64,000 bases of DNA from Aotearoamyces nothofagi (lineage: Eukaryota; Ascomycota; Leotiomycetes; Leotiales; Tympanidaceae). This document shows, piece after piece, positions 32,986 through 48,983 of this stretch. The notes under the pieces were generated by a model. It was not told where the DNA came from. It did not search any database and worked only from the letters and a program-made list of their open reading frames with translations. The position numbers and the translations under genes were made by a program. The DNA is taken from contig JADDTR010000001.1 of NCBI GenBank assembly GCA_015345905.1, positions 1,178,001 through 1,242,000 on the forward strand, in the 5' to 3' direction. Within the stretch, counting starts at the first letter, position 1, and the number at the start of each line of letters is the position of its first letter.

Positions 32986-35967
32986 ATGGAGTGGCATCCA
33001 GAGGAAGAGCCGCTGAGGCAATTATCGAGCTGGCTTAGGGATTCGCTCAGTGGCCACAACAAGACCGCTCAGAAGCATGCGGAGATTGTACGCTCTTTCC
33101 AGTCCTCATACGTCCTGTGCTCTAGTCAATTGCGTTCTCTTGAATGCTAAGCTGACACATGCTAATCTCATTTCTAGATGCTCGCGCAAGCAAAGTCTAC
33201 ACCTACCATCAACAACTACCTCACGTATCTCTTCTCCAACGCGCAAGTTCCGCCCGGACTGTCCTATACTGTAGAGGAATATCATGCTGTCAGATCTGCT
33301 GCAGCGGTTATGCTCAAAAATAATATCAAGACCGGATACAAATCGATACCAGAATCTAGCCTGGATCTCATCCGATTATCGGTGCCTCTTGTACTCCAAG
33401 ACAAGAATCCCCAAATTCGTAGTTATGCTGGGAACGTCATCACCGAGATCGTAAGCAAGGGCGGGATCTTTTCCTGGCCACAGCTTTTGGAAGATCTTTT
33501 AGCACTTGTGGAAAATGCAGGAGGCATTACCACTCAAGAAGCACAAGAGGGTGCAATGGCTGCACTGTCTAAAGTTTGTGAGGACAACAGGCGGCTCCTC
33601 GACAGGGATTACCAAGGCCAGCGACCTCTTAATTTCCTGATCCCCAGGCTCATTGAGTTCACTACAAGTCCGGTCCCGAAGGTTCGATCACTGGCTTTAG
33701 CCAGCGTTAATATTTTTATACCACAAAAGCCACAAGCCCTACTGGTCAATCTCGACCTCTTGTTATCCCATCTGTTCCAGCTTGCAAATGACCCCATCCC
33801 AGATGTACGTCGGCAGGTCTGCCGCGCATTTGTCCAGATTGTGGAGGTCCGCCCTGACAAGATTCAGCCGCATATTGCCGGATTAGTTGACTACATCATT
33901 TCTCAACAGCAAAAGGTTGAAGAGGAAGATCTTGCATGCGATGCTGCAGAATTTTGGCTCAGCGTTGGAGAGCACAATGCACTCTGGCGGTCTCTAGGGC
34001 CGTATCTTAACAAGATTATCCCAGTCCTTCTGGACAGTATGGTTTACAGCGAGGAAGACATTGCTGTGCTCGAAGGTGGCGAAGATGATGCAGACGAAGA
34101 GGATCGAGCTGAGGATATCAAACCTAAATTTGCAAAAGCAAAGGGTGCTAGGAACTTCACCAATGGAGAGGGGGACGGCGAGGCAGATGAGAATGGCGGA
34201 GCCTATTCCAAGATATCTGGTGATGATGACGACCTCGACGAGGGCGAAATTGAGGAGTCCGACGATGATGATGAAGACGGCAACCCTGAGGATCAGTGGA
34301 ATCTACGCAAGTGCTCAGCAGCAGCCCTTGATGTCTTCGCAAATGATTTCCGGGGTCCAGTTTTTGACACTATCCTTCCGTATCTGATGAAGAATCTTCG
34401 ACATGAGGAGTGGCCTCATCGAGAGGCTGCTGTCCTCGCACTGGGCGCAGTGGCAGAGGGATGTATTGAGGTTGTGACACCTCATCTGCCTGAACTGGTA
34501 CCATATTTAATTAGCCTGCTAGATGATCCTGAGCCACTTGTTCGTCAGATCACTTGCTGGACCCTTGGCCGATATTCTGCTTGGGGAGTTGCACTGACTG
34601 ACCCTGGCGATCGATCGCGTTATTTTGTTCCCATGATGGAGGGACTTCTCACTAAGATGCTGGACCGTAACAAGAGGGTTCAGGAAGCTGGAGCTTCAGC
34701 ATTTGCACATCTTGAAGAAAGATCTGCCCAGCAACTCACTCCCTACTGTGAGCCGATCATTCGCCAGTTCGTACGATGTTTTGAGAAGTATAAGGACAAG
34801 AATATGTTCATACTCTACGACTGCGTGCAGACACTCGCAGAATATGTCGGACCAAATCTCGCGACTCCCGATCTCATCGCTTTATTGATGCCAGCTCTCA
34901 TTAATCGATGGCAGAAGGTCTCTGACCAATCCCGAGAGCTATTCCCACTACTCGAGTGCCTCTCCTACGTTGCAACCGCTCTAGGGCCTGCTTTTGCCCA
35001 ATTTGCACCCCCTATATTCTCAAGGTGCATCAAGATCATCCATCAGAATCTGGAAGACTCTATCGTGGCTATCAACAGTCCAATTTTAGAAACGCCTGAT
35101 AAAGACTTTCTCGTAACGAGCTTGGACCTTTTGAGTGCTATTATACAGGTCCTCGGCGAACAAAAGTCCGCAGAACTCGTATCCGGCTCACAGCCAGGGT
35201 TCTTTGAGCTGCTAACTTTCTGTATGCAAGACCCCAGCAACGATGTCCGCCAATCAGCTTACGCTTTGCTTGGCGACTGTGCCAAATGTGTCTTCCCTCA
35301 GCTGCAACCATTCCTCCCTAGTATCTTACCCATCTTGATCAAACAGCTAGATCTTAGGGTTGTTATAGATGATATGATCGAGAATGGGTTCAGCGTTGTG
35401 AACAATGGCTGTTGGTCAGCTGGTGAGATCGCCGTCCAGCATGGCAAGGGCATGGCCCCTTATGTCGAAGAATTGTTCAAGCGTCTTCTAGATATTTTGG
35501 GCGATCCTGATGTGCCGCCATCAGTCAATGAGAATGCTGGCATTGCACTTGGCCGCCTTGGACTAGAGAACTCGGAGGCTATGGCGCCGCATCTCGCTAT
35601 GTTTGCAACTCAATTCCTGAATTCGATGGATAAAGTCGAGGACACTGATGAAAAAGCTTCCGCCTTCACAGGGTTCACATTAATCGTTGGACGGAACCCA
35701 GAGGCAATGGAGAGTGTTCTTGCGCACTTCTTTACAGCTATTGCTCGTTTCACCTACGATTTTACAGCAATGACAGCGCAGAAGGGAGAGCTGAAGGCAC
35801 TATTTTCGCAGGTAGCTCACATCCTCCCCTGGAGCAATGTTCTCCGACTGACAGATGCAAAATAGGCTCTATTAGCATATAAGGCACTAATTCCAGACTT
35901 CGACGCATTTCTACAACAGCTCCCCTCAGCCGATCAACAGGCATTACGAAATACTTACAACTTGTAA
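32986..35967 (+). CDS. KAP104: Transportin/karyopherin beta-2 (Kap104, importin)
   Basis: Three exons: 32986-33087, 33178-35811 and 35866-35967, giving 945 aa. It starts MEWHPEEEPLRQLSSWL and continues with HEAT repeats (AQAKSTPTINNYLTYLF, AAAVMLKNNIKTGY). The acidic loop that releases cargo is clear near residues 350-400 (DDDDLDEGEIEESDDDDED), followed by NPEDQWNLRKCSAAALDV. Kap104 imports PY-NLS proteins, mainly mRNA-binding proteins, into the nucleus; Ran-GTP binding to the N-terminal repeats dissociates cargo. The simple reading frame stops at 35865, but removing a 54-nt intron (35812-35865) gives the family-like ending YKALIPDFDAFLQQLP to RNTYNL. I therefore place the stop at 35967. Confidence 0.92.
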
Positions 35968-38900
35968 ATAGAAAGGTCTTTCGGGATACATCACAAGGCG
36001 CAATGTTGGGCGGGTTGGGGCTTAACGCAACCGCTTTTGCATTTACGAAGGTATGACTTGGGAAAGGGAAGAGAAAAGAGTTGAGCGATTGCATTTTAAA
36101 GCGCCCACAAAGCAATGCGGTCTATGTACAGACGTTTATATTTTAGACAACAAGGCAGGCGCGCTTCTTATACGCAGAGGGCTTCCAGTTGACATGCTGT
36201 GGCGTTGGCATCAATCAGCGTTGTGTTTTGCAGGATGGCCACGATGAAATGTATCCCGCGGGGGGAACACTTTGTAGTGTCGTAAAGGCGGAGGAATCTT
36301 AGGGGGTCCCCAATTGGCATCAAAGGGGTTTCATGTCCTTATTCTTAGATAGAAAGTAGATAGAATAAGCAGCTCGAATTTCCGCGGCCCCTCCCCCTTC
36401 CGAGGTGACTTGGGCAAGGAGATCTTGGATGGTGTTGTCTACTGTTGTCTACTGTTGTCTAACTGAGGCCGTTGCGGTGGTCAATTCTCTCGGCGTAGAA
36501 TTGCACGGGCCTGCACGGGCCTCGGGCCTCTGGAGATGAGGTGTCAAGTCAGTCACGTTGCACATGACCACCTGACGGGAAAGCACGTGCCTTGTGGCTG
36601 TACAGAACGATGCAGAGTAGATGGCGCAGGGGGGCTATTTTTAGAAAAAGGGATCTCATCACGTCACGCCGGAGCAAGTGGAAGCTAGCTCGGCATAGCC
36701 TAAGGGGCCTGCCTACATTAGGAAGGCAGGCAGGGCCAGAACAGCCCGGGTCAGGCAATGCAAGGCGTGCAGTGCATCCCCCAAGCATTGCCCAGGCACA
36801 CGCTGTAGGAACCGCAATATAAAGTGCAGTGGCAGTGGCAGTGGCAGTGCAGCGTGCACTGTCAGCTACACGCGACGCTTATGGCAGCTTCTCAGTCTTT
36901 GTCAGTCTTCCTCGGCGCCATGTTGGGCCGGGTGCGTTGCGGGGTCGCGTTTCACCACTGGTTGATCTCCTTCCTTGGACAATGCAGTAACAATACCTCC
37001 GAGGACGATCTGTCCATGGTACAGGTACTATACACTGCTCGTTACATTGCTCGCACGTAGTAACTAAGCTTCCTCTGTACACTCTCTGCATACATATGGA
37101 CCACACCGGCTGTACTGTATGTATAGACACGCCCCCAAGCTTGACCAGTGCTCGGTGTTGGCACATTCAGGCTTCATTGAAGGCTGGTGAAGCACTGGGG
37201 AGCCTGGCAAAGGCTGCGAGCTAGCACTCATTATCCTGGGAGTGGGTACGTATCTACTCCGAACGCCGTACTGTACGGTACGGTATGTACAGGTCGTCGC
37301 TGGTCCCCTTTTGCACGGCCTGTTGTTGGATACATGGACCGTCCAAGTACATCTGACAGCTGGTAGGGCCGCAGAAGTGTATGTATGATACGTATCCCCT
37401 TTAGGCTCGCGGATCCGTCGTCCGCGGCAAGTAGGAGCTACGTAGGAGGTCTGCCTGGCTGCCTTCCCTTCTGCATCTCCCAGGTTGCAAGTACAGTAAG
37501 TATAGTATAGCGACCTCCGCTCTCTCACTTTATTTTGCTGGTGTACAAGGTACTTGGTCCATAACGGCTTGCTCGCCGCCAGAACTGCCAGGATGACGTG
37601 TTATCTGGCCTGCCGGGAATTGGCACGGGAGTGTCGGGGTCAGCTCTGGAATGGCCATGTCAAACTGGACCAGGGCATCTCGGGTTGAGCTGCGCAAATC
37701 TAAAGAATGTATGTGAAATAACGGGAGATCGGAAAACGGAAAGACCAGAGACAAAGAGATTGCATGCCTGTCTTGTCTTGTGTACATGATGGTGATTCAC
37801 CCGCCTTACCTGACCCTGTGGACTTCGTCCCTCAGCAGGTCGACGGTCCCGGTTGTAACGAACCATCGAGCGGCCCTTCGGCTATTCCATCAATCCTGTC
37901 AGTCCTATTTAGGTATCTATCAATCCTAGGTGAAGTATCTCCGTCGTAGCTGGCGTATGCGTTTGCCCAAAATAGCCGTAGCCCAAGGATGCGTACGGTA
38001 GATGTTGGCCTACGTTTCGAGTTTCGAGGTTCGAAGTTTGCTGCTCGATCTTCGGTGCTTGCTGTTTGCTGTTTGCTGTTTGCTGTTTTAGTGTTTGACT
38101 CGCTCCATGCACAATGGCTTTTCTCTGTCAGACTTTCACACTTCCACACGTCCACAACGCTACCCACCGTACAGTATGTTATGGTATGATATATCTAACC
38201 TAGGTACGGTACTCTAGCTGCCACGCTGCGGCCCTAGGCTCCATAGCACTCGGACGTCTTCGGATCCTTGTCTCCGGCTCCCGGCAGCACGGCCAGTTAT
38301 GTTTTCGACGCCTGACTTATTCAGGTCATCGTCGCGATGTGTTATGTACCATACAAAAAGTAGTACGATTATAGGGTTGCAGCGTTGCAGCGTTAAACGG
38401 TTATACGGTTATACGGTAGTACGGTTGTACGGGCTGTGACTTGCTACGCGGTTGTAGGGGAGTGGTACAGCGGACCGCGGCACAGCTCAAACGTAGGTAT
38501 TAATGTGGGTAACAGGCGTCATTCTCACCCCATCTTTTTCTACTGCCAAGCCAGGAGTCTCCAACAAAGAGAGAGAGACACCCGTGACAACTGACAGCCC
38601 GCTCGACGGACAAGACCCTGAAACGCTGGCACAGGACATATTTTCGGGGTAGAACAAGACCTCTTTCTACTGAGCTACTGTTGCTGCGGCATAAACGCAT
38701 CTGTCGTCCTGGTGCATCTGGATACTTGGCATGCTCACTCTCTTTTGTTTTATTTTACGTATGCGTCAAGAGAAAGGCCCGTTTCTGACCAACTCTGCAT
38801 CTTGCGTCTATATTGCTCTCGCTGCTGCTGCTGCTGCTGCTGTACAGGATATCTGCACATGTTGCCCTCGGCGAGAGCAAGATTCGTGAGCGGAGTGATG

Positions 38901-40140
38901 GAAGATCCAATGCCAAGAAGGAAGACCCAAGGGTTCGTTTTGCGATCTTCATGCCTCACTACTCATGTACAGACTCGTATGAAGCCCTATCTTAGAACCC
39001 AGCGGAGACGCACTAAAGCCAGATCTGAAATACTAGGGAAAGTCCTCAGCGCCAGCGACATACTATACTGGATACGTTATTCCGAGTTCGGCATAAATCT
39101 TCAGCTGAGACCCCATTCCAGCGTCTCGTGTCTTGTGACTTCGTGCTGCTTTTTTTTATACAGCACAAAACTAACATGGGAGTGCGGCATGCCAAGGGCT
39201 CAGGCTTGGCAGCGTCAACTTGACTCTCGCTCCTGGTTACTCGGGCCGCGTCGAGCCGGGTGTTGCAGGTAAGTCGGTAACAGGTGCGCGCACTAGACAC
39301 GGCATTTTATATTTGATAGGGTGTATAGGAAGTAGAGCATCCTCGTCTCATGCTACGTTGTATTCGTTTATGCGTCCGGAGTGCGAAGGAAGGCAAGAAG
39401 AGCATCTGCCCAGCAAGGTTGCGTGGGAGACGCAACAGCCGGCCAGCAAACGGCCTTCTAGAAAACAACGAGACGCTAATTATAGGGATTGCGCACCAGC
39501 TCTACTGTAGTCAGATGCCGAGAACTGAAACCACCATTCGGTATAAGGCTGTCTGTCGATCTCAGCAGATGAGATGAGGCTGTCCGCGATCAAGATTCGC
39601 CGCGCTGTGCTCACTGAGCAAGATCAGGCGGTCAGCCTGCCGCCACTCCACCATCGCGCCAAGAGGCCCGGAATGACAGGTTGACAGTCATCGTCGGCGT
39701 GCGCAACGACGACGACAGCGAGGTAAGCGGCTGTAAGCGGCTGTGAGCGGCGAGCAGTGCTGCTCAAGGGATCAAGGCCATAGCTATAACCAGAACTACG
39801 ACCATGCCAAGGTGCATACTGTAGGCATCGGCTTGCTATTCGGTACAGTATAGCCGGGCATTGACTCTGTTCAGAGATCGTGGGCATGGAGTCGCAACAG
39901 CGAGAAGGACAGATTCACAGCAGAGCAGGACAGGAATAGCGGATGGCCCAGGAGGTTCTCGTCTTTTCATCGTGGGAATCCAAGCCGGCATGCACTCCAG
40001 TACAGTTGCTAAGCTTGCTGGCGCACCGCCTCCTTCTGGCAGAAGACAGGCCAAGACAGACACGCCTTACGGTGCCTGCTCGGGTAAGCCGGCGCTGCCG
40101 TCGAGCAGTCCTTGCTGCCATGGACCGGACTTTACGTACT

Positions 40141-40177
40141 GGGCACGGGGCACGGGGCACGGGGCACGGAGCACGGG
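40141..40177 (+). repeat. Tandem repeat (CACGGGG)n with G-quadruplex pattern
   Basis: About five copies of a 7-nt unit. Four or more runs of at least three G are separated by CAC, a canonical G-quadruplex pattern on the plus strand. Confidence 0.85.
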
Positions 40178-40299
40178 TTTACAGGCTCGGACTTCGGTTT
40201 ATCAGGCCGCCGAGAGGGACAGGGCAAAGGCGAGTCGGCTTCCGGTCTGCTCTGCCCGTACTGCGCAGGATCAGGACGCGGTATTGTATTGTGGTGTTG

Positions 40300-40300
<1 letters not shown>

Positions 40301-40363
<63 letters not shown>

Positions 40364-40408
40364 CATACACATACATACACATACATACATATATACATAT
40401 GTACACAT
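40301..40408. repeat. Hexanucleotide microsatellite (ACATAT)n
   Basis: The first 62 bases (40301-40362) are perfect; the remainder decays into ACAC/ACATAC variants. It is an AT-rich island in a GC-rich region. Confidence 0.95.
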
Positions 40409-40572
40409 GAGTCCCTGAGCCCTGGACTGCTTACTGTACTGTGCTGTATTAGCACCCGCGCGCTGCCACGGCCAATTCGTATCCCGCTGGAAGGGAAGTG
40501 CCTGCCCTACAAGATGCGCCCGCCTGCTGCCCTACGGCGCCACGCAGGGTCGGCCTGAGGGCTGGGACGGCC

Positions 40573-40616
40573 AAGCCATCGATGAAGCCGTCGATGAAGC
40601 CGTCGATGGAGCCATG
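40573..40616. repeat. 12-nt minisatellite, unit GTCGATGAAGCC
   Basis: About three and a half copies with single-base differences at the ends. Confidence 0.85.
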
Positions 40617-41536
40617 AGTCTAAAACAACTGCGATGTGTTTAACCTTTTGCACTATCCGCTCTATGTGCAGCCATTCGTGCCACCCCCTGCTAGGAGGGC
40701 TTGGCACACCGCTGCGCCGTTTGATGGCTGCGGGTTCCGATTAAGGTACGGTGGGCACAGGCGGGCACAGGCGGGCACCTGTACTCCGTACTTCGTACAG
40801 ACGCACGGCCGTTGCTCGAGGGTTGGGAAGTTGGGAACATGGGATATCTGGCTTTGTACAGTACGGCAATGCTGCACCGCATGGACTGGGCTGTACTGTA
40901 CGGTGCTGTGAACAGCACTTGCTATCGGCCCCGCCCGAGACACCGAAACATCGCCTTTCCAGGCCGGCGGACTCGCAGCGCTACGGCGACGGGGTCTTCG
41001 GCCACGGTGGGTGGGCTAAGGGATATGCTTACCTGGCCGTAATTGCTGGATTTGCATTTGCTATTTGCTGTACTAGATCTGCCCTGGCCTGCCCTGCCCT
41101 GGCGTCTACACCTCTGCCGGCTTGCGGTGTCTGTGTCGCGGAAGTCGAGTTGGGTGACAGCTTGCAGGCCGCCTCCCAAGCAGCGTGCGCAGAGCCCGAG
41201 ATCGCGGACAGTTAAGGGCCCTCGACTTGTAAAAATCACCGGCAACCCGAATGGCACTGTCCGTACCATACTCCGCACACACCTCGATGCTCGACGGAGG
41301 TAAGTATAACCTCAAGAGCAAAAGCTTGGCACGGTTTAGGCCCCGTCTCCTCTGCACAGATTGGTCTCGCTCGCGCTACATGGTTAAGCTCATCCATGTC
41401 GCCCACCCCACCCATGCTCGCATCATCTGTCAGGCCTCCGGGCGTCAGGTCATCCTGCCCTGCCCTGCCCTTCCGTCGCAGTAATGAGGGACGGCAGCAA
41501 TTACTGTAGTAGCGGGCCCCCTTGTCCTGTGCGGCA

Positions 41537-41574
41537 CTGGACGAACTGGACGAACTGGACGAGCTGGACGAGCT
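41537..41574. repeat. 9-nt minisatellite, unit CTGGACGAA/CTGGACGAG
   Basis: Four copies; the last two carry an A-to-G change, so the array shows ordered internal variants. Confidence 0.85.
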
Positions 41575-42151
41575 GTCCCGTGCAGCGCTGGCAGTACGCA
41601 CCGTGAATGCCACTGCACATCTTCCACTGCGCGCCCTCGTGCCCGACTCGAATCTGTCCGAGTCTCCGAGTCGCCGAATGGCCGTGCCCATTGCCGTTCC
41701 TGTACAGTGCGCTGCAGCTCTCCTGGACTGAACGGGAGGTCAGGTCACGGCGAGGAAGGAAATCCAAAAATACACGCGCACCCCTGAGACGAATGGGATG
41801 GCGAGACAGCCAGGCGGCAGGCATACAGCCACGGTCGCAGCAGGTGAGTACCACTGCCCTCTCCAGCTGACTGCCTTCTCGCACGGAGCCCCGATTCTGG
41901 GCATCGCCGTTCGCGACTGCTGCAGCCGTGCAGTACATCACAGGTTGGTGACTGCAGCGGCGGATTATCGAGCAAGCATGAAATCACTCCGGCTATTTGA
42001 GAATTTGAGAATTGAGTTTTGAGATTCACTAAATTATCTACGGGATCCGACGGCGGCACGCAGCAGGGAGCATGAGCGTGGAGCGTGGAGCGTGGAGCAT
42101 GGGCCCACCAACATTGACATGCATCTCTTACCTGGTCGGGCGGACGAAAGC

Positions 42152-42184
42152 GGCAGGGCAGGGCAGGGCAGGGCAGGGCAGGGC
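42152..42184 (+). repeat. Pentanucleotide (GGGCA)n with G-quadruplex pattern
   Basis: Six GGG runs are spaced by CA, a canonical quadruplex pattern. The same unit recurs at about 42766-42785, and in reverse complement (TGCCC) at about 41088-41103 and 41455-41471. Confidence 0.9.
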
Positions 42185-44121
42185 TCGCACCAGTTCGCGC
42201 AACGCTTCCTCACAGCTGCAGAGCAAGTACAGTAGGTACAGTAAGTACTGTGCACAGCCGGCCCGCCATCTTACCTTACTCGCCTCACATGGCGCATCTA
42301 CAGCACCGTGCCTATGGACAGTCCCTTACTACAGTAGGTATGCGCCCGGCGCACTGCTACTCGGAGTGCAAGGCCCAGGAGCCGACTGCCCTATGAGACG
42401 CAGTTGAAAACCGGGGACGGTTCAGCACAAAGCTTCCAAGCGCATGGAAGGTGAGCGATCGGTGGCCCGAGTATCCAGACGCTGTACGGAACACGGAGCT
42501 CTGGACCCAGCAAATGCTTGAACCGTGTCCAGGGACTTACAGCAGCTAGGCGTCGTCTAGTCCGGCATTCCAGTTGATCAAAAACAGGCCGAACGCAAGC
42601 TACAGCTCTCAGGACGAAACAGGACGGCTGGACGGGTGAAGAATGGATGGCACGGTGGTCCAGCACGCTCGTCCATCAGGATTCTCCACCAGTAAACGGA
42701 CGGCGTAGAAAGCAACAGAACTAGATATGGCTGCTGGAGCAGGAGTAGCGACAGAGCAGAGCTTGGCAGGGCAGGGCAGGGCAAGAATAAGGAAGCAGGA
42801 AGAAGGAAGAAGGAAGAAGGAATAAGGATGCTGGGCCCGTTGGCTACTGAGGTGCTGCTAATCCGACCCAGGGAACAAATAGCGGGAAAGAAAGGCAAAA
42901 GCGCAAAAGGCGAGTCATCCGTCCGTCATTCCACCGCCAAGGCGATGCTGAGTTGCTGCAGCTTTACTGGCCACCTCGCCAAGCACCCTTTTTTTCTCTT
43001 CTTCCTGCCGGTGATTATTTTTGGAGTCGTGCGTCGCGCTCCTGCAAGCGTGCTCGGTGCGACTCGCGACTGGTGGTGATGCGGTGTGCAGCAGCAGCCC
43101 ATCCGCCGCAAAAGAAAAGACCCTGATTATTTATATACTCTGGCTGCCCTGATTAGGAAGTTGCGGGAGAGGCTGCTGGAGCTTGCGGTATGGGAAAGAG
43201 GCAAGTCGGGATCTAAGGTTGTAGTGGGTGATCTTTACGAAGACGACTGCTCCGTAACGCTGTCCACGGTAGGCTGGCGCGCTCTCCCTCCTACCTTACT
43301 GTAGGCACCCTAGGCCGAGGGGGCCTTGCCCGTTAGGGGCCTTGCCTTGCTGTCGAGATGGGAACCCCGGGCTCCGCCGTGAGACCGGAGCCTCCCCTCA
43401 TGCCAGCATAGGCGACGGCAGCATCAGTTTGTCTCTCTCGCTCGCTCGCTCGCTCTCGCTCTGCGCCCCATGCCCAGCGGTAGCGCTTCTCGGTAGTCTT
43501 TTCGCACACAGGTTGAATCCCCTGCAGGATGCCATTTTTACCTCTTGGGAGGATACGGTACGGCCGTACGAGGGTCTTGAGGCCTGTGACAACTGGGGAT
43601 TGACACATGGTGGTGTAGCATCAAGCACAGCACTAGGCGCCGTCGGTGGTCGATACGATACGGCAGGCAGGCACAGAGGACGGTACAGCGGGTACAGCTT
43701 TACCTTGGGTGGGGAGGAGAAGCAGGCTATACTTGTAGATACGGTAGGCAGTAGGCAGTAGGCAGGCATGCATACCTTTAAGGGAGGCAGTAAATAGGGA
43801 CAGGCACCCAAGATAGGTCTGTACATACCTTATTCTTAGGTACCTTAGGTACCTTGGGGACAGTGACTACAGTGGCTACAGTGGCTACAGTGGCTCTCCC
43901 TCGCCTTGCCCTGCTAGGACTGCTAGGACTGCTGCTAGGTACTGCTGGCCGCTGGCCGCTGGCCGCTGACAGCGGGCTACTGGGCTCTGCCCACATCTGG
44001 CGCTGGCGACTCACGGCCAGCGCTCCAGCGGCCCTCTCTTCCGGGCACGGGCACCCTGTCGTGCCTGTCTACCTGCCACGGCGGCACACTCTACTCGGGG
44101 CAGCAGGCCAGGCAGGCGTGT

Positions 44122-44250
44122 GGGAGGGGTGGGAGTGGTGGGAGTGGTGGGAGTGGTGGTGGGAGTGGTAGTGGTAGTGGTAGTGGGCACTGGTAGGGTG
44201 GGCTGGTAGGGTAGGGCACTGGTAGGGTAGAGCACTGGTAGGGGAGAGCA
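44122..44250 (+). repeat. G-rich degenerate repeat (GTGGGA / GTAGTG / GGTAGGG units)
   Basis: About 130 bp composed of G-rich units, first GGGAGTGGT, then GTAGTG, then CACTGGTAGGGTAG. The first part satisfies a G-quadruplex pattern (GGG, GGGG, GGG, GGG with short loops). Confidence 0.85.
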
Positions 44251-44350
44251 CCACCGGGCGATATGGATCGGGGGTTATGCTGTAGGCACTGTCCTGGAGT
44301 GCACTGCACTGGACTGGACTGGACGGTACTACGGTAGGTGTTAGGTGGCA

Positions 44351-44417
44351 TGAGCCTGTGCCTGAGCCAGTGCCTGTGCCTGCGCCTGCGCCTGAGCCTG
44401 AGCCTGCCCGTGCCTGC
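44351..44417. repeat. Hexanucleotide repeat (GCCTGN)n
   Basis: About eleven units of the type GCCTGT, GCCTGA and GCCTGC in tandem. Confidence 0.85.
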
Positions 44418-44755
44418 TCGCTCCAGCAGGCCGACGCGCTCCTCACAGCATGGCTCGATGCCTGCGCAGAGGCCGCCTGCACCTGGCTGGCGTGCCTGAA
44501 GGCGCTGTGGCCCAGCGCCCAGCGCCCAGCGCCCGCTCCGTCACTCACTTGCTTGACTTCGCCGGCACCCGCTCGCTCTCACCTCACGGCCCCCCCAGAG
44601 CGTGCCCGGTGCCCGGTGCCCAGTGCCCAGTGCCCCCCCAGTGCCAACTTCTCGCTGCTCCCTCGCCCTCCCCTCTGCTCGCCCCCCCCGGCTCACCCGC
44701 CCGCAGCCAATTGCCAGCTGCCAATTGCCCATGTCCGCGGGCCCCCCCCCCTGCG

Positions 44756-44801
44756 CGCCCATGCCCATGCCCAAGCCCAAGCCCAAGCCCATGCCCAGAC
44801 C
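44756..44801. repeat. Hexanucleotide repeat (CCCAAG/CCCATG)n
   Basis: About seven units with two alternating forms; C-rich on the plus strand. Confidence 0.85.
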
Positions 44802-45061
44802 CACGCCAGCCTGGCTCGGTGCTTTTTGCTACTGTACTGTACTGTACTGCGCTGTACTGTATGATGCTGATGCAGATGCAGATGCAAAATGGCAAATGCA
44901 AAATCCAAATCAATCCACATTGCACATGCACACCTCGCATCTCAGGTCGGCAAGGTCCTGGCTGGCCGTAACCTAGGGCGCCGTACCTAAGGCCAGTACA
45001 GTACAGTACAGTACAGTCAGGAGGAGCCACCGCACCAACCCACTTGTTTTAAGGTAGGCCG

Positions 45062-45171
45062 TAGCGCAGCAGTAGCCGTCGCCGTCGCCGTAGCCGTAGC
45101 CGTAGCCGTAGCCGTAGCAGTGGCAGTGGCAGTAGCAGTAGCAGTGGCAGTAGCAGTCGCCGTAGCAGCGA
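45062..45171. repeat. Degenerate 6-nt array (GCCGTA / GCAGTG / GCAGTA)
   Basis: About 110 bp of hexamers. Blocks of GCCGTC, GCCGTA, GCAGTG and GCAGTA follow one another, and GCCGTA returns at the end. It is one of the longest arrays of the region. Confidence 0.9.
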
Positions 45172-45284
45172 GTAGGGCAGGGTGGGTAGGGGAGGGGAGG
45201 CGGTTCCGCAATCTACAGTCCGTCGGGCAAGGTGCAGCACCGTACCAAGTGTCGCTGCCTGCTGTAGCCAAGTACAGTACTGTT

Positions 45285-45338
45285 CTGTACTTGCTGTACC
45301 TACTGTACCTACTGTACCTACTGTACCTACTGTACTTG
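45285..45338. repeat. 9-nt minisatellite, unit CTGTACCTA
   Basis: About five copies flanked by CTGTACTTG variants. It belongs to the GTAC-rich stretch at 44.8-45.5 kb. Confidence 0.88.
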
Positions 45339-45726
45339 CCTAACTTACTGCTGCTGTACTGTACTTGCACTGCCGTACTTACCGTACGCACTGTACTTAA
45401 CTTACTGTACTTAACTTACTGTACTGTACTTTACTTTACTGTACAGTACTTACTGCTGCTGCTGTACTGCACCCACTGTCCCTACTGTACATGCCGCACG
45501 TAGGGACAGTACCGTACCGTACCAAGCCTTTCCAAGCCCTGCCAACGCGCCACTCCCTCTGGCCCCCCCGGTCATATGCCGATTCTCCGCCTTCCAAGCC
45601 TCCTTCCTCCTTCCTGCCTCCTGCCCATCACCTAAGCAGTAAGGCCACCCTAGAGGCAGCTAAGCTGGGTGCTCGCTCGCCCAGTCCCTACCGAAGTGCT
45701 GCCCACCTGCCCTGCGCTGCACTGCA

Positions 45727-45735
45727 CTGGTACTG

Positions 45736-45766
<31 letters not shown>

Positions 45767-45808
45767 CACTGGCTCTGGCTCTGGCTCTGGCACTGGTACT
45801 GGCTCGGC
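45727..45808. repeat. Hexanucleotide repeat (CTGGCT)n
   Basis: About thirteen units with occasional CTGGCA and CTGGTA variants at regular places, suggesting duplication of a larger block. Confidence 0.92.
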
Positions 45809-46880
45809 CAATCTGGCACGCCTCAGCAGACGAGGAGGCCGTCGAAACTATTAAGATGGCTGCCATCGCCGTGCATCAGATATCTTCCTGCTCCTGCTCC
45901 TGCTCCTGCTCTGGCTCTTGCTCTCCAGTGCCACTTCCACTTCCACCTTTCACTTCCACTTCGGCTTCTTCTTCTCTCTTCTCTCTCGTCTCTCCTCTCT
46001 CTTCTCCCTCTCTCCGTCGACCGCCAGCCCCAGCTGCTGCTGCTGCTGCTGCTGCTCCTCCTCCACCCACGTTCGCTTTTGTGTGCAGCCCTCCAAGGGA
46101 AGCCCTCGTAGGCTCCTGCCATTCGCTTTTACTACCCTCCTCCTCGCCCTCCCCTCGTCCTCGCCGTCCCTCGTTCAGCATCCGCATCCGCGTCCTGCGT
46201 CCTGCGTCCTGCGCCGTGCATTTCAGCCTTACTTGGCACCTTGGGACTGCTTGGTAGCATTCGGAGAAACCTGCACCCAGGCTCCGGTCTCCCGTTGCTC
46301 GTTACTCGTTACTCGTTACTCGTTACGCACCACATTCGTTGACTGACTGCCTACTGCCTCCGCCGACCTGACTGCTCTTGTATGACGCCGCCGCCCACGA
46401 CGCACAAATCCCGTCCCTTCTCTGCTGACACTGCCCCGGAGAGGTGAGGTAATCAGCAAGCAGACGTTCCACACGCACACGGCCACCGTACGCCGGTTGC
46501 TACCAGTCCCGCCGCGTTACATCCATCTCATCTAGGTCCATTCGGCCGCTCCGCTCTCCTCCGGTGCACATCTGGCCCGCCGAGTGGGAACGTCCCGGTC
46601 TGACTTGAGGTACCTCAAACCCGCAGCCTTGCGCCCACGCTCGCTACCTGAGGTACCTTGGCTTCTTTCGGCCTGCATCTTACATATATACCTTTGCCTT
46701 CTAAGCCTTGGTGTCTGCCTCGACCCTGGGTCATTCCACCCTCCTCCAGGCACGCCTCCGTAACCTTATTGTTATTCAGTAAGAGGCAAGAATTTACCCT
46801 ACAGCCTTTTCTGTACTTTACACTCGTTGATCCCTATTCGCAAAAATCTCTTCTGCCCCCTCCCATCGAGCCTGTTGAAA

Positions 46881-48983
46881 ATGGTCGGGCCAGGTGGAGG
46901 ACCTCCTCGAAGGAGGTATGTATCTCCAGATTTTACCACAAAAGGCTTAAATTGCTCATGCTAATAATTCACTGCTTCAGCCATACCAAGTCTCGCAAGG
47001 GCTGTGACACCTGCAAGCGTAGACACATACGATGTGATGAGAACTTTCCCCAATGGTAAGACCACCCAATTCCAACTATTCGCAACGACATCGTATCGTG
47101 CAATAAATATCCTCTGGTCTCAAAATCCAAGCATTGTAGCTAACAACGGAGTAGTCGAAACTGTACGAAACATAATTGTCGCTGTCCCTACATGGACATG
47201 CCTCCGCAAGAGGAGAGAGCTCCTACTCCGGAAAAGCCAGACCTTCTGTGGACCCCGGAGAACGAGGCTGAAATTGAGCGCTGGCAACGAACGGGGGTCT
47301 TCCCATTCCCTGATCTTGCCATCTACCCGGCACCGAACCCACAGCTCTTCTCCCCCGAGGACCTTCGTTTGATACACCACGTCGCAGGCATCTCAACGGA
47401 GCTGAGTCTTCATGATGCAGGTAACTTTACCATTTGGACGGGTCAAATTCCTCTGTGAGTGGCTTGCTCTAGTATAGTGTGTGTGGATGTGGTTGGAGAA
47501 TACGAGACGATCCACTTGTTGATAACTTACCAACACGAGGGGATCGCCATGTATTTCCCACACCCTCCCATCCCTATAAGCAAATGCATGCATGCGTTCT
47601 AACAATCTCAACAGCTTCTTGAAGATCGGTTCCACGTATGGATTTGTCATGCATGCCCTCCTAGCTTTCTCAGCGACACATATTTCTTGGCTTACAGATT
47701 GTCAACTCGTCAACCGCATGGCGTACGAGCACAGAGGGATTGCTTTCAAGGGCCTCCAGGAGGCTATCGGCATGTTTTCAAGGGAGAATTCCGATGCTGT
47801 ACTCGCGGCTTCGCTCCTGCTGTCATGGCAAGCAACAGAATGGTGAGAGAGGCAATCACCTAGAATCGGCCCGTGGGACGGTTGCTAACTGCAAGTTTTT
47901 AGGCGTGGCTGGACACAATTGATGCATGGAACTTCCTCGGTAGGCGCTGACGTCCCGATGAGGATATTCTAAGCAGTAGCTCATGTTGTACAGGTTATTG
48001 ATGCGATGCAACCATGGAAAAACGAATCGCAGTTTGGCGATTTCATCGCGGAGCAATCGACCTTCCCAACTGCACCGCCCTCGCCTGTTCCTAACAAGAA
48101 GCTGACACAGCCTCGCAAAGAAGATCTTGATACCCTCCAGCGTGCCTATGCTCAGCTGCAAGTTGTAGAGATGAGGCTCGCAGAACTTAACGAGGACACA
48201 AAGGCAATTTCGCAGCTGATGACGTTTGTGCAAGGGATCCGAAAGGTAACACCAGCTCACACGGCCGCACAAAGATTCGAAATGCTCAATCCTCTTCGTA
48301 CATGGCTTTTCTGGTTACCAGTCATGTACCTCCAACAAGCTCGAGAAAGCCCGTATGCCTTGGTAATCCTGGCATATTACTATACTGTAGCATTGGTCGT
48401 CGAACCCATCTTCCCGGAAGTTGGCGCAGCCTATTTTGGTAGTCTCTCGCTCAGGCCTATAGAGGAAATTGCTCGCCGCTTGTTATCGATCAATATCTCA
48501 CAGCCCTCGAACGACGACCTCCAGACACCACTCACGCTCATGGAATACTCGATCGACATGGTATCGAAGTTCCGGGGTCGAATGGGTTGGGCTCAGCCTG
48601 AGCGTACCGCTTCGTTCCCTACGTTCCAGAGCAATGCATTTCAACAGGAGGACATATACGACATGCAGAGAAACCCCGGGCAGAATAGACTATATCCTTA
48701 CGGCAGCAATCCGGCATTCAGCTATAGCCAGGAGCACCTCACGCCGCTTCACTCCGAGCCAGGCTCCGCGATAAGCCCCTCGAGCCTCGATCCGTTTGGT
48801 GGCGCAAATACCCAGTATCTTGGAATTCCTTCACCGGGTGGCTTTGGTGGGTATGCTAGCCCAGCCACGTCGTCGTTTGGCGATGTTGCATATAGTGATC
48901 AGGGGGGAGAGGAGTATCTGTATGAAGGACAGGGGTCGCAGTCTGGATTTGGCGGGTTCGTGCACCATACAGTCTGGATATAG
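46881..48983 (+). CDS. Zn2Cys6 zinc-cluster transcription factor, possibly Upc2-like
   Basis: Six exons: 46881-46915, 46981-47055, 47155-47454, 47615-47842, 47903-47939 and 47994-48983, giving 554 aa. The zinc cluster lies near residues 20-46: HTKSRKGCDTCKRRHIRCDE, then NFPQCRNCTKHNCRCPYMD, with six ordered cysteines. The middle region (GSTYGFVMHALLAFSATHIS, LAASLLLSWQATEWRGWTQL) and HTAAQRFEMLNPLRTWLFWL resemble the ligand-sensing domain of Upc2/sterol-regulator-like fungal factors; that subfamily call is tentative. The C-terminus is Gly/Ser/Tyr-rich and may be an activation region. The gene follows the 10.9-kb repeat stretch. A proline-rich frame right after the stop (49004-49237) may be a further exon. 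Confidence 0.85.

Follow-up and report, generated by a model that had tools for sequence, protein, structure and literature searches.

Long upstream regions and promoter repeats are already known, and what is new at the locus described here is the form that they take. Homotypic clusters of binding sites are enhancer-like, yeast promoters are short, and a general paper by Noble and Andrianopoulos (2013) reportedly covers fungal gene spacing and regulation. In Candida albicans, long upstream regions matter (PMC5810986, PMC8546583), and the segment from -6536 to -2138 of WOR1 is described as needed for commitment (PMC8546583). According to a review, repeats occur in about 25% of yeast promoters, preferentially in nucleosome-free DNA, and expression shifts when they are altered (PMC3899988). 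Here we have analysed a 64,000-nucleotide window of the Aotearoamyces nothofagi genome (C1:1178001-1242000; genome of 25.5 Mb in 55 contigs, that of a filamentous ascomycete to judge by its genes), in which a GC-rich region of about 11 kb, referred to below as the desert, separates a HEAT-repeat/importin-beta-like gene from the start codon of a Zn2Cys6 (zinc-cluster) transcription-factor gene. We propose, with moderate confidence, that the desert serves the zinc-cluster gene as a long upstream control region, with the leader near its right end, and that replication slippage has enlarged it.

As at WOR1, several kilobases of upstream DNA lie 5' of a regulator gene, the identity of the regulator being read here by eye from its cysteine pattern. 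Unlike the WOR1 region, the desert is GC-rich and array-rich, carries a palindrome (TACNGTA) that is shared with other loci, and is known from sequence alone. Short arrays upstream of genes are a trait that it has in common with the repeat-bearing promoters of yeast; these differ from the desert, where dozens of arrays are spread across 11 kb and reach their highest density 1-3 kb before the start codon. The many copies of one palindromic word, inside and outside arrays and within one distance range, recall homotypic clusters, with the difference that TACNGTA comes without a binding protein known to us.

An array-rich region without recognisable genes

The desert had originally been predicted to span positions 35968 to 46880, and these limits fit the TAA of the HEAT/importin-like gene (35965-35967), whose 3' side adjoins the desert, and the start codon of the zinc-cluster gene at 46881. 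Tandem arrays were called by Tandem Repeats Finder (TRF, score 40). The desert contained 62 of the 73 TRF rows of the window, with one row in the left 36 kb and 10 in the right 17 kb, and its array coverage was 17.5%. The character of the DNA changed at this place: arrays covered 0.09% of the left side but 1.8% of the right side, and 3.7% of the 200 kb that follow. In 50 Markov-resampled versions of the desert, the number of rows averaged 0.14 (maximum 1) and the coverage 0.04% (maximum 0.45%). The array periods spanned 2-19, and the units of 5, 6, 7, 9, 10 and 12 nucleotides named in the original prediction were indeed among the commonest (5, 10, 12, 8, 4 and 5 rows, respectively; period 14, 5 rows). 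The GC content was 0.568, compared with 0.464 to the left and 0.506 to the right, peaking at 0.66 at 44-45 kb and dropping to 0.50 just inside the zinc-cluster gene.

The DNA between the arrays was unique, as predicted, at the BLAST depth used (low-complexity filter), with within-desert matches of 20-29 bases only. Comparison of the desert with 26 other loci and the two window flanks returned matches of 24-37 bases only. An origin from transposons or decayed elements was rejected, since the pieces searched contained no interspersed copies and proteins of such elements were not found; transposon families were absent from the 17 families listed at E <=0.1 for 119 desert frames.

We have compared the desert with the other apparent non-coding gaps of a contiguous 264-kb sample (the window plus 200 kb of right flank, about 1% of the genome). 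Among 33 gaps of at least 1.5 kb, the one holding the desert was the longest and the most array-rich, with 15.8% array coverage, followed by a 1.9-kb gap with 14.2% and another with 9.6%. An equal array density in most intergenic regions would have spoken against a distinct region, and none of the 32 other gaps reached 15.8%. The nine other gaps of 4-8 kb averaged 3.7% arrays and 0.5 TACNGTA per kb (vs 3.7 per kb in the desert), and coverage was 1.5-4.1% in the other gap classes and in coding segments. The claim that gaps are mostly below 1.5 kb was not confirmed: other apparent gaps of the 264 kb reached 7.5 kb, a figure that is an over-estimate because small exons are missed.

The expectation that these 11 kb hold no believable gene stood up to both the frame searches and the coding scan. 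The hexamer score used in that scan, trained on this genome, called no coding segment in the desert; the scan also overlooked the initial exons of the zinc-cluster gene and chose the wrong strand for a GC-rich frame of locus L023. Ten of the longest frames, and then all 119 desert frames of at least 62 amino acids (aa), gave no believable protein family, and the conserved proteins looked for in them were not found. Matches below 1e-4 were to PARP (4.1e-6), SslE (1.5e-5) and ClfB (2.1e-5), in one frame of the 119 each, and are read, from the family names, as repeat artefacts; the others were isolated, to repeat-rich or low-complexity families. The desert had 18 frames of at least 150 aa, compared with 3.8 in first-order shuffles and 8.3 (highest 15) when the arrays were kept. 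With arrays not kept, 18 frames were reached in 5/200 second-order and 1/200 third-order shuffles, and with arrays kept in 11/200 and 20/200, respectively. A period-3 signal was present in six scanning windows (6.6%, null 1%), all overlapping arrays of period 3, 6 or 12. Rfam at gathering score found no family in the window, and a tRNA scan found none. A bacterial promoter and terminator scan, of a type irrelevant to a fungus, was near chance.

The word TACNGTA and its placement upstream of start codons

The window contained 55 copies of TACNGTA vs 8.7 expected, of which 45 were in the desert, a region that had not been selected by this word. Twenty-six of the 45 lay within arrays. The remaining 19, against 2.8 expected, were outside arrays, with spacings of at least 40 nucleotides for 14 of the copies, at a density 11.6 times that of the rest of the window. 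Outside arrays, TACNGTA was the lone outlier among 64 odd palindromes, the runner-up having a z of 1.5. One word is thus enriched beyond composition outside the arrays, as in a homotypic cluster. Its form is one that a homodimeric DNA-binding protein would read. Elsewhere in the genome TACNGTA also occurs as GTACA arrays. A literature search for words of this type returned no paper with the word among the matches listed, and one on longer intergenic regions gave none.

The word GTACAGTA was present in 27 copies in the desert and in none in the rest of the window, and its close pairs numbered 350 genome-wide in the forward form, whereas the reversed control gave 2. There were 699 places with paired GTACAGTA, and among the first 100 of these we have chosen eight further places on C1-C3, which were examined together with four extensions. 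Seven showed a similar GC-rich, array-rich stretch, and the eighth (L034) was a small island of about 1.5 kb. Array coverage was 9-22% and GC mostly 0.5-0.7 in L023-L028, and in L033 the array-rich stretch extended over about 3 kb. These sister pieces still hold short coding-scan segments, some of which are real neighbouring genes. Similar regions therefore recur in the genome, which corrects the apparent uniqueness of the desert. In seven of the eight places, all but L024, a gene start faced the arrays; regulator-type domains were recognised in three of these seven genes by a tool and in two more by eye.

The upstream DNA of six genes was aligned at the start codons (the zinc-cluster gene of the window, L023 and L025-L028, five of the six having been chosen by motif). 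The mean number of TACNGTA per successive upstream kilobase was 0.17, 5.7, 6.8, 4.3 and 3.7, and then 1.0, and the fullest kilobase lay 1-5 kb upstream in all six. The mean array coverage over the same kilobases was 15%, 34%, 36%, 10%, 17% and 4%, so that tandem arrays are enriched upstream of the start codon, as in repeat-bearing promoters. The listed GTACAGTA pairs were 1.4-4.8 kb from the start codon. The coding strand of the first kilobase was pyrimidine-rich in four of the six genes (0.62-0.67).

Competing explanations for the desert

Three options had been left undecided by the original prediction: array formation by slippage or GC-biased repair, a long regulatory or leader region, and a long noncoding RNA. 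We favour the long regulatory or leader region because most of the arrays and of the motif copies are found 1-5 kb before a start codon, both here and at the five other aligned places, and slippage is probably the way in which the arrays arise rather than a rival to it. The desert would act as a large platform for regulatory proteins, with a block 1-3 kb upstream rich in TACNGTA and isolated copies of the word scattered over the distal 8 kb. The kilobase beside the start codon, which is rich in pyrimidines and lacks the motif, would be the core promoter and 5' leader, the transcription of which is suggested only by its strand bias and few ATG. As no reading frame constrains the region, replication slippage could keep making and enlarging short arrays, giving more sites and a longer region and possibly changing the expression of the gene.

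Several observations weigh against this proposal. We know of no TACNGTA-binding protein, and the last 880 nucleotides of the putative leader fold no better than shuffles (z 0.21). At L023 the first kilobase (35% arrays) already matches the two that follow it, and at both L023 and L028 the kilobase at 8-9 kb upstream is equally array-rich or richer. L027 has a weak pyrimidine bias (0.56), and L026, whose start codon is uncertain, has none (0.47). ATG depletion over five genes is modest in the first 500 nucleotides (12 vs 19-25 expected) and not evident in the 500 beyond them (13 vs 12-19). The sister regions were selected by motif, which leaves position and neighbouring genes, rather than the presence of the word, as their independent features, and the tool-supported regulator-type domains are in three of the seven neighbouring genes only. 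The coding scan performs poorly with small exons and with GC-rich genes, so that a gene made of small exons could have escaped it in the desert. The link between arrays and gene class was assessed with 49 GTACA-array loci derived from 100 of 108 matches listed. Around 125 Zn2Cys6 matches, a GTACA array lay within 5 kb upstream in at least 3 cases, and none was listed downstream (1.2 expected), which was not significant. Around 39 genes with other transcription-factor domains there was at least one array upstream and at least one downstream among the matches listed (0.4 expected). MFS genes, of which 9 of 342 candidates were scored, were left aside as a control family. Zinc-cluster genes in general thus show no significant association with upstream arrays, and the link, if any, concerns some genes and not the whole zinc-cluster class.

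The arrays might instead mark neutral ground, in which a long unconstrained gap gathers slippage products and TACNGTA is merely a unit that has spread, with no binding protein. The many unrelated units, of periods 2-19, in short arrays within unique DNA agree with this, as do the 26 of 45 copies inside arrays and the GTACA arrays found elsewhere. We regard it as possible but less likely: 19 copies lie outside arrays, mostly well apart, whereas the 63 other odd palindromes are not clearly enriched; in all six aligned genes the fullest kilobase keeps to 1-5 kb from the start codon; and the nine other gaps of 4-8 kb have gathered few arrays and few motifs. A hotspot of GC-biased repair, in which an open promoter suffers breaks at meiosis that drive up its GC and give rise to minisatellite-like arrays, is a possible but tentative explanation. 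It may account for the GC peak at 44-45 kb and for the third-position GC of the two exons measured next to the right of the desert (0.55 and 0.63), which is higher than in five genes to the left (0.39-0.49) and in three genes farther away to the right (0.44-0.52). It leaves the palindrome unexplained, and long frames with GC near 0.7 away from such gaps indicate that GC varies for other reasons too.

That the desert encodes a long noncoding RNA, or has a second promoter giving a very long leader, seems unlikely to us. The pyrimidine-rich last kilobase with its few ATG would suit such a transcript, whereas the missing Rfam families and tRNAs and the shuffle-like folding of the last 880 nucleotides speak against it. 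It is very improbable that the desert conceals a protein-coding gene whose exons are small or whose composition is unusual. The 18 long frames exceed most shuffles unless the arrays are kept, and the coding scan is weak in such DNA; against this, the 119 frames gave isolated matches to repeat-rich or low-complexity families, the frame count fits nulls that keep arrays and trinucleotides, and period-3 is confined to arrays. The frame searches, the shuffles and the period-3 test thus give a hidden gene no support. The likelihoods expressed here overlap, since the mechanisms can coexist.

If the desert is a slippage-enlarged control region, a compact fungal genome would mark a set of regulator genes by extensive control regions that change fast and have one word in common. 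This word, taken together with its distance from the start, would then be a direct handle on the genes of one regulatory layer, and the desert would be a test case for slippage building and rebuilding enhancer-like DNA. A bolder version, which we regard as a long shot, sees the GC-rich regions 5' of regulator genes as a class that resembles super-enhancers and is read through TACNGTA by one undescribed homodimeric protein, with slippage as the means of fast gain and loss of sites.

Features, neighbouring genes and other observations

Table 1. Features of the desert and its flanks (window positions), and genes at the sister loci.
Feature	Position	Strand	Basis or remark
HEAT-repeat/importin-beta-like gene (left neighbour), last large exon	33178..35967	+	Pfam HEAT_EZ 1e-42, IBN_N 6.7e-6 for 33178-35862
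Desert: gene-free (as far as seen), GC-rich, array-rich region	35968..46880	.	composition, repeats, gene scans, gap comparison
Distal part: largely unique DNA (GC per kb 0.50-0.60) in which short arrays and TACNGTA words are scattered	35968..44300	.	
(TACATA)n array, about 17 copies, longest of the distal part	40300..40400	+	repeat scan
(GGCAG)n array, 6.6 copies	42152..42184	+	repeat scan
Array block, array coverage 51%, GC 0.62, TACNGTA densest	44001..46000	.	2-kb bin
Homotypic TACNGTA cluster, mostly in GTACA-, GTACAGTAG- and related arrays, both orientations	44830..45521	.	1.36-2.05 kb before start codon
Kilobase before start codon, putative leader/core promoter	45881..46880	+	pyrimidine 0.67 on coding strand, no TACNGTA, one ATG
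Zn2Cys6 transcription-factor gene, spliced	46881..48983	+	translation starts MVGPGGGPPRR
L023, Zn2Cys6 gene	C1:517833		position of the domain
L024, DEAD-box gene			3' side on right
L025, DUF2722 gene			faces arrays
L027/L031, RRM gene			faces arrays
L028, SAM and HMG-box gene			faces arrays
L033, probable gene		minus	no family

In the zinc-cluster gene, the cysteine pattern CX2CX6CX6CX2CX6C spans an intron, and the domain was recognised by eye since introns split it. The large exon had no Pfam match, and a literature search for the name of the regulator gave no useful match among the matches listed. The frame of the HEAT/importin-like gene contains an in-frame TAG at 35863-35865, followed by 33 open codons up to its TAA; a nonsense change, a sequencing error and an unrecognised splice cannot be told apart here.

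Two genes of the sister loci were assigned from their sequence. The one at L026 we take to be an Lte1-like RasGEF gene, with no tool match, and the one at L034 is presumably bZIP-like, on the minus strand, divergent from an acyltransferase gene and with no Pfam match. L024 and L029 together (C1:607001-622000) contain a stretch of about 13 kb almost without coding signal, longer than the desert, with one short coding call at L024:241-450 and an array coverage of 22% over its first 10 kb. At L025:1-500 (C2:26001-26500), the GC falls to 0.25 at the left edge of the GC-rich, array-rich stretch.

Long frames with GC near 0.7 were seen at L014:4155-6400, L016:4118-5206 and L023:3180-4400, the genes measured being mostly at about 0.45-0.54; the L023 frame resembles an old-yellow-enzyme flavin oxidoreductase. 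Dense long-period repeats (periods up to 288) fill about two thirds of 4 kb at L021:7500-10000 and the start of L022, and are perhaps a repeat protein. At about L015:500-3500 (C1:1362500-1365500), a block of some 2.5-3 kb with a GC of 0.15-0.17 lies beside stretches of GC 0.6-0.75.

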